A DNA stretch of 64,000 nt. Origin: Anaerolineaceae bacterium. GTDB taxonomy: Bacteria; Chloroflexota; Anaerolineae; Aggregatilineales; Phototrophicaceae. Below the pieces are notes generated by a model. That model did no database searches and was not told the DNA's origin. It saw only the letters and a program-made list of their open reading frames with translations. Position numbers and translations under genes: made by a program. Of the stretch, positions 20,925 to 22,377 are shown in pieces (position 1 is the stretch's first letter; each line of letters begins with the position of its first letter). The stretch covers positions 434,001 to 498,000 of the forward strand of contig NZXX01000009.1 of assembly GCA_002702065.1 (NCBI GenBank), in the 5' to 3' direction.

Positions 20925-21030
20925 CGTGCGCTCCTTTGCGTTATTTGAAACTGAGCAACTTATAACATGACTCCGGCAGGCCGGCAACAAACGGACGACC
21001 GTCCAGTTTGCGTCACAGGCCCTGGAATCG

Positions 21031-21192
21031 AATAAGTCGTGCGTAGTGAGGGGGGACACTGGCGCACGACTTATTGAGGGAAGGGCTATGGATGGGTTCA
21101 TTGTCTGAACTCATCAGCCCGCGAATTTGGTCTTACAACACATCTCACACCACTTTGGAGGAAGGAGGAATCAACTTACCTACCAAATTCGC
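21031..21192. ncRNA. Candidate structured RNA: three consecutive hairpins in a gene-free stretch
   Basis: The 340-base gap 20925-21264 contains AATAAGTCGTGCG ... CGCACGACTTATT (perfect 13 bp, 21031-21043/21063-21075), then GGGCT-atg-GATGGGTTCA-ttgtc-TGAACTCATC-AGCCC (15 pairs, one G-U, 21083-21120), then GCGAATTTGGT ... ACCAAATTCGC (perfect 11 bp, 21121-21131/21182-21192). No ORF fits the region. No U-run follows any hairpin, so they are not simple terminators. Strand unknown; on the minus strand it would be a leader of the flavin reductase gene. No known RNA family recognised. Confidence 0.45.
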
Positions 21193-21264
21193 ATGTCTAT
21201 AAGATAGGTCTGTCGCGTAAGATACAAGTTAGGCATCCATGAGTGTCCAATGAGAGGCATCCGG

Positions 21265-22377
21265 CTAGCTACCTGGCGTCTCCGGAACGCCCACCGGACC
21301 AATGTTTTGACCGTCCGGACCGGGTACCGGCGTGCCCTGCTGGCAGGCGGTTTCGGCGTTGCTCATCTTGGCCGAGACGCCGCCATCCGCGAGCAGATTG
21401 AGCGCGTTCTGGTACTGTGGATAAGCCGAACACGGGTTGCCCTCGGCCACCCACGCATCTCCATACGCGACATACTGGTTGAACAGCAGGCGGCGCAGTT
21501 CGCCGTCACGATAATTCGGCGCAATGCTGTAGGCTTCGGAAAGCGCCTGGATTGCCCCGCCAAAATCCGTACCGATCTTGCTGCGGGCGTTCAGATACAG
21601 CGCAGCGACATAGCTCTCGTAGCGTAGTTCGCTGTCGGCGGGCAGGCCATACTTTTCCGCTTCGTCAACTAGCAGAATGGCTTCCGCCAGGTTGCCGCCA
21701 CCACGGAACAAACGCAGCGCCTGGGCACTCAGGGATTCCAGCATCAAGCCGCGCACCGCAGCCGCCTGATAGGTGCTGTCCACCGCTTCGATCACCTGAA
21801 GCAGATCAACCGCCTCGGTATACTGCCCCAGCCGCGCCGCCGTATTGGCCTGTTCCAGCAGCCCGGCCAGGTCATAGCCGTCGTCGCTGGTTTCGATCTC
21901 TGCCTCGAAGGTTTCCTCCGGTGCAGCCGTCGTCGTCGTGACTTCCGGCGTCGCTGTCGGTGTCGGCGTTTGCGTTGGCTGGTTGTTGAGATACACCGCC
22001 GTTGCCGTTTCCATCAGCTCGCCCAGCCCGGCAACACCCGGCGTCTGAGTCGCCAGAAATTGCAGGCGCGCCCCCAACAGCACCGCGTTGCCGCTGGCGA
22101 CATCACCGGGGATACGATTGAGCTGATCCTGAATTTCGGCCTGCTGGGTCGCGGTGGCAAAAGTCTGAGACTGCCGCTGGCCGGATGTCCAGCCCGCAAC
22201 ACCGGATAACAGAACGATAGCAATCGCGAAACCGACACCTGCTACGCTGACCACACCCCATAGCAAACAACCGGGCCCCTGGTCGCCTTCCTCCAGTTCC
22301 TCAAGCCGAACCGGTGGCTGACCATGCGGTGGCGTATCATCCGGCAGGCGTGGCTGTCTTTCGTCAATCGAACTCAT
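21265..22377 (-). CDS. Membrane-anchored TPR-like protein
   Basis: 370 residues. About 40 acidic/Pro residues precede one membrane helix ('LLWGVVSVAGVGFAIAIVLL', ~38-58), so the C-terminus is outside. A coiled/helical stretch, a Thr/Pro linker ('QPTQTPTPTATPEVTTTTAA') and then tetratricopeptide-like helix pairs follow ('YDLAGLLEQANTAARLGQYT', 'AIQALSEAYSIAPNYRDGEL', 'PCSAYPQYQNALNLLADGGV'). Likely an envelope scaffold; function unknown. Divergent from the glutamylcyclotransferase-like gene. Confidence 0.75.
   Translation of the reverse strand: MSSIDERQPRLPDDTPPHGQPPVRLEELEEGDQGPGCLLWGVVSVAGVGFAIAIVLLSGVAGWTSGQRQSQTFATATQQAEIQDQLNRIPGDVASGNAVLLGARLQFLATQTPGVAGLGELMETATAVYLNNQPTQTPTPTATPEVTTTTAAPEETFEAEIETSDDGYDLAGLLEQANTAARLGQYTEAVDLLQVIEAVDSTYQAAAVRGLMLESLSAQALRLFRGGGNLAEAILLVDEAEKYGLPADSELRYESYVAALYLNARSKIGTDFGGAIQALSEAYSIAPNYRDGELRRLLFNQYVAYGDAWVAEGNPCSAYPQYQNALNLLADGGVSAKMSNAETACQQGTPVPGPDGQNIGPVGVPETPGS

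Follow-up and report, generated by a model that had tools for sequence, protein, structure and literature searches.

The three adjacent hairpins found at 21031-21192 of the window (the whole 64,000-nucleotide stretch of DNA analyzed here) together make up, on well-supported evidence, the folded structure of a single small regulatory RNA (sRNA) gene encoded on the minus strand. A preliminary description, made from the sequence of the window alone, had suggested a structured RNA or a protein-bound DNA element and had named an Rfam search among its checks; no Rfam family reaches its gathering threshold at the element. The RNA represents a new small-RNA family of familiar type, real, well bounded, and absent from Rfam. 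The gene is complete, with its own predicted promoter and predicted terminator on the same strand. Its features are listed below in the order in which they would be read.

21250..21254, minus strand: promoter repeat 1, CTCAT, kept in 50/50 homologs
21239..21243, minus strand: promoter repeat 2, CTCAT, kept in 50/50 homologs
21228..21232, minus strand: promoter repeat 3, CTAAC, kept in 50/50 homologs
21217..21221, minus strand: promoter repeat 4, CTTAC, kept in 50/50 homologs
21201..21206, minus strand: -10 box TATCTT (consensus TANNNT), separated from repeat 4 by exactly 10 nt
21023..21193, minus strand: small RNA gene, about 170 nt (predicted ends: 5' ~21193, 3' ~21023-21030), from covariance models R1 and R2, homologs, covariation and strand bias
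21121..21192, minus strand: 5' hairpin (third in the preliminary description), 11-bp stem and large loop; 9/10 modelled pairs with double-sided changes
21083..21120, minus strand: middle hairpin; homologs keep only its GGGC/GCCC base, and the remainder is variable
21076..21082, minus strand: C-rich single strand UUCCCUC, from alignment and fold; candidate target-pairing site
21031..21075, minus strand: 3' hairpin (first in the preliminary description), an intrinsic terminator; 10/13 stem pairs with double-sided changes
21046..21059, minus strand: apical part of the terminator, GUGUCCCCCCUCAC, near-invariant; likewise a candidate target-pairing site
21023..21030, minus strand: U-rich terminator tail, weak in the window and clear in many homologs

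Structure and covariation

All three stems are present as first described (13, about 15, and 11 bp). The arms of hairpin 1 (21031-21043 and 21063-21075) pair over 13 bp and those of hairpin 3 (21121-21131 and 21182-21192) over 11 bp, both with 100% complementarity, while the 15-bp stem of hairpin 2 (21083-21120) carries one 3-nt bulge. Read on the minus strand, 21193-21023 folds at -61.9 kcal/mol, compared with -36.5 +/- 3.7 kcal/mol for 200 shuffled sequences, a stability well beyond chance (z = -6.9).

Covariation on aligned homologs, which had been put forward as a check on the hairpins, bears out the structured RNA. In an alignment of 40 sequences, 22 of the 30 base pairs show double-sided changes, a count that none of 500 shuffles equals. 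Pairing is kept in 91.7% of cells of the same alignment, a value again reached by 0 of 500 shuffles, and drops to about 45% when partners are slid by one column; the structural model came from the sequence of the window, a choice that favors the percentage paired, and the double-sided changes are the stronger evidence. Pairing in the 5' hairpin is kept across homologs, with variation in its loop and its length. The terminator loop, CCCCCCUCAC, is near-invariant, and its stretch CCCCCUC is invariant in the 40-sequence alignment. This C-rich loop also occurs in further families of the order, and in the main family UUCCCUC lies single-stranded between hairpins 2 and 1, so that C-rich motifs occupy the loop of the terminator as well as a single-stranded stretch.

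Other readings of the same sequence were tried. A small protein was rejected, since reading frames are interrupted in the window and lengths vary, leaving no conserved frame. In the window, GUGAG of the 5' loop could pair with CUCAC of the terminator loop, but the changes seen in homologs, compared by eye, are non-compensating, and we make no claim for such a contact. The invariant C-rich apical loop and the conserved 5' hairpin could together form a protein site, as expected of a structured RNA that binds a protein, a sponge or a 6S-like regulator, in place of pairing with mRNA. We consider this improbable, given that no known protein-binding RNA family matches and that 6S RNA is located elsewhere in the same genome; on the latter ground, and with scores below thresholds, identity with a known Rfam family, 6S RNA included, was also rejected.

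Strand, terminator, and promoter

Substitutions within the stems distinguish the two strands. Counted for the minus strand, G-U pairs exceed their mirror A-C substitutions by 99 to 26 cells, and an alignment-free scan of hairpin 1 gives 48 against 11. Because of this excess the RNA is assigned to the minus strand; the sequences counted are related and the events therefore non-independent, although the bias recurs in many lineages. A plus-strand transcript, the orientation implied by the preliminary description, was rejected from the G-U/A-C bias, the side on which the promoter lies, and the side on which the terminator lies. The minus strand is also that of the neighboring TPR and flavin-reductase genes.

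The hairpins had been said to lack U-runs and, for that reason, not to be ordinary terminators. The tail in the window itself is indeed weak (UUAUUCGAUU), but a T-rich stretch (6 or more T within 9 nt) follows hairpin 1 on the minus strand in 33 of 50 homologs, whereas the plus strand has one in 3 of 50, and classic T runs follow the terminator in L056, L058, L158, and L160. Hairpin 1 is thus an intrinsic terminator on the minus strand, which leaves the original statement on terminators right only in part.

Upstream of the RNA stand four direct repeats with a period of exactly 11 bp, followed by the -10 box and then a likely start near 21193. The arrangement of four repeats, 10-nt gap, and -10 box occurs in 50 of 50 homologs, with the T and A of each repeat invariant or nearly so. 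Box scores in homologs range from 21 to 27.5, whereas 1471 control windows average 15.6 and reach at most 21. At 12 further loci found with the RNA models alone, all outside the training of the promoter profile, the box is the best site in 11, and a comparable second site appears only at L161, through a tandem duplication, and at L164, through an overlapping repeat. The search also works in the opposite direction: starting from the box alone, it led to three loci (L187, L188, and L189) with the same C-loop terminator downstream. Within its own genome, the four-repeat pattern occurs free of mismatches at the sRNA gene only. The idea of a protein-bound DNA element survives for this repeat box alone (21201-21254), just beyond the coordinates first described, and not for the hairpins. 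A scan for sigma-70 promoters found nothing, because the promoter is of a kind without a -35 box.

Only one further site in the genome combines three exact repeats with a -10 box. This site, L088 (G000:C13:164608-164650), sits 58 nt before a gene for a secreted DUF4397 protein, a candidate regulon member.

Distribution and gene neighborhood

A blastn search of 61 genomes (the source genome plus relatives) returned five clear non-coding homologs. Covariance model R1 extended this to 53 of 98 genomes of the family, with one place in each, and the minus-strand model R2, built from 40 sequences, to 62 of 154 genomes of the order, again with one copy per genome. A pattern consisting of the C-rich segment plus the terminator loop, run against 84,980 species genomes, gave 16 matches, every one in a record whose title names Chloroflexi, Anaerolineae or, once, Aggregatilineales. 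At the class level, only one (L228) of seven model-matched genomes outside the order has the promoter box; the matches lacking it, L226, L227, and L229-L232, were left out of the homolog counts. The order-level match L163 also lacks the box.

Two observations concern single lineages. In another family of the order, the genome containing L161 (G052:C3:12100-15300) encodes the complete unit of four-repeat box, RNA, and C-loop terminator twice in tandem. Genus g17, in a family otherwise rich in matches, has a model match in just one (G091) of its many genomes, a pattern that we read as either loss of the sRNA within the genus or its strong divergence.

Mobile elements often carry perfect inverted repeats, and the hairpins might on that account be the end of such an element, or a DNA-level inverted repeat with no RNA at all. 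This is very improbable. The check for a mobile-element end found a single copy in the genome and nothing matching among plasmid or phage records; the C-rich/terminator-loop pattern likewise had no match in viral contigs, and a repeat or mobile element was rejected on these findings. Strong covariation, a G-U bias toward one strand, and conservation over family and order further oppose it.

That the element is a cis-acting leader, or a 3' element, belonging to a neighboring gene (an attenuator, a riboswitch, or the 3' UTR of the TPR gene) is suggested by its position between the TPR and flavin reductase genes, all on the same strand. As regards INDEPENDENCE, the upstream TPR-like gene is kept in 37 of 62 loci and was not found in the other 25, some of which lie on short contigs, and the downstream gene varies by lineage. 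Such varying neighbors argue against a fixed cis-regulatory role, as do a promoter of the element's own, downstream of the TPR gene, and a terminator at its end; we regard a cis element as quite unlikely. The gene called TPR in the preliminary description (21265-22377, minus strand) encodes a conserved protein with one transmembrane segment that adjoins the sRNA throughout most of the family; searched against Pfam and NCBIfam, this protein had no match.

Candidate regulon and regulator

The four-repeat box has the layout of sites bound by response regulators of the OmpR/PhoB family. CpxR recognizes direct repeats of the form GTAAA-N5-GTAAA (PMC12802237), and PhoP sites of M. tuberculosis consist of 7-bp repeats with a 4-bp spacer (PMC4832192). 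Matches to the pattern in the source genome and its relatives include sites at HtrA-type proteases (L092, L094, and L225) and at a PDZ protein (L191). When the spacing of repeats was varied on a grid over 30 regions upstream of HtrA genes, precisely the combination of period 11 and gap 10 came first of 63, whether two or three repeats were required. With this box also lying ahead of HtrA-type proteases, the regulon reads as one of envelope or secretion stress, and with moderate confidence we infer an envelope-stress-type regulon, its regulator and signal being putative.

The same sRNA gene could instead be controlled by the phosphate regulator PhoB, whose sites share an identical 11-bp direct-repeat layout. 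Related boxes occur at phnC and pstC and, in one relative (G002), a CTCAT-type box occurs before pstS. Thirty regions upstream of PstS-like (PBP_like_2) genes, however, give no such peak at the 11/10 spacing (ranks 27 and 3 for two and three repeats), and the boxes associated with Pho genes are mostly of the TTAAY type while those of the sRNA are of the CTCAT type. We hold control by PhoB to be unlikely, though still a rival to the envelope-stress reading. The boxes upstream of phnC and pstC (L216, L217, and L222), which have 11-bp repeats of TTAAY/TTCAC type and the same spacing to the -10 box, probably serve as the Pho box in these bacteria.

For the envelope-stress regulon, a candidate regulator can be named. 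Among 28 OmpR-type regulators of the source genome, one has a fitting box upstream of its own gene (E ~0.0018 for the gene, ~0.05 corrected). It is encoded at L272 (G000:C1, ~902870-903700), with the repeat box upstream, together with a histidine kinase whose nearest relative is BaeS, below the curated cut-off. This protein is a candidate autoregulated regulator of the sRNA.

Proposed mechanism and comparison with known systems

As a full explanation, we favor a trans-acting, C-rich sRNA of LhrC-like type, driven by a response regulator and belonging to an envelope-stress-type regulon; we hold this to be probable, with appreciable room for doubt. A response regulator of OmpR/PhoB type would bind the four 11-bp repeats in the -35 position and recruit RNA polymerase to the -10 box 10 nt downstream, the presumed effect being activation and not repression. 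The transcript would begin at the 5' hairpin and stop at the intrinsic terminator. UUCCCUC and the terminator loop would then anneal to the G-rich ribosome-binding regions of mRNA targets, and this C-rich pairing would lower their translation. Both activation and pairing through the C-rich loop are proposed from anatomy, with LhrC as the model. A more specific reading, that this sRNA family of Anaerolineae forms the post-transcriptional branch of an envelope-stress regulon of CpxR/BaeR-like type, with a four-repeat box unique to itself and an invariant C-rich terminator loop, we advance tentatively, at somewhat less than even chances.

The family arrives with structure, strand, promoter box, terminator, and candidate regulon, and is directly testable. 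The four-repeat box, moreover, opens a way into the network of response regulators in these bacteria, most of which are uncultured.

No comparable regulatory sRNA in Chloroflexota was found in our searches of the open-access literature. 6S RNA (RF00013) and Chloroflexi-1 RNA (RF01698, PMC2864571) are also structured non-coding RNAs of Chloroflexota, but neither matches the element, and 6S RNA is encoded at a separate locus in these genomes. The Pho box and PhoP sites resemble the sRNA box in their 11-bp direct-repeat period, made of a 7-bp motif and a 4-bp spacer (PMC4832192), and differ in that PstS-like genes here lack the box peak. The Cpx system of gamma-proteobacteria shares a direct-repeat box of the OmpR family, with an 11-bp period at some of its listed sites, and has degP/htrA in its regulon (PMC12802237); the Chloroflexota box differs in having up to four CTCAT/CTAAC/CTTAC repeats. 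LhrC of Listeria monocytogenes is controlled by LisRK under envelope stress and carries UCCC motifs in a loop, in a single-stranded stretch, and in the loop of its terminator (PMC4132741), an anatomy similar to that which we infer for the Chloroflexota sRNA. LhrC is a multicopy RNA of Firmicutes, with no shared sequence shown, whereas the sRNA described here is single copy, has a four-repeat promoter box, and belongs to a different phylum. If the proposed function is correct, Chloroflexota have separately evolved a stress-sRNA circuit comparable to LhrC or to the Cpx-controlled sRNAs.
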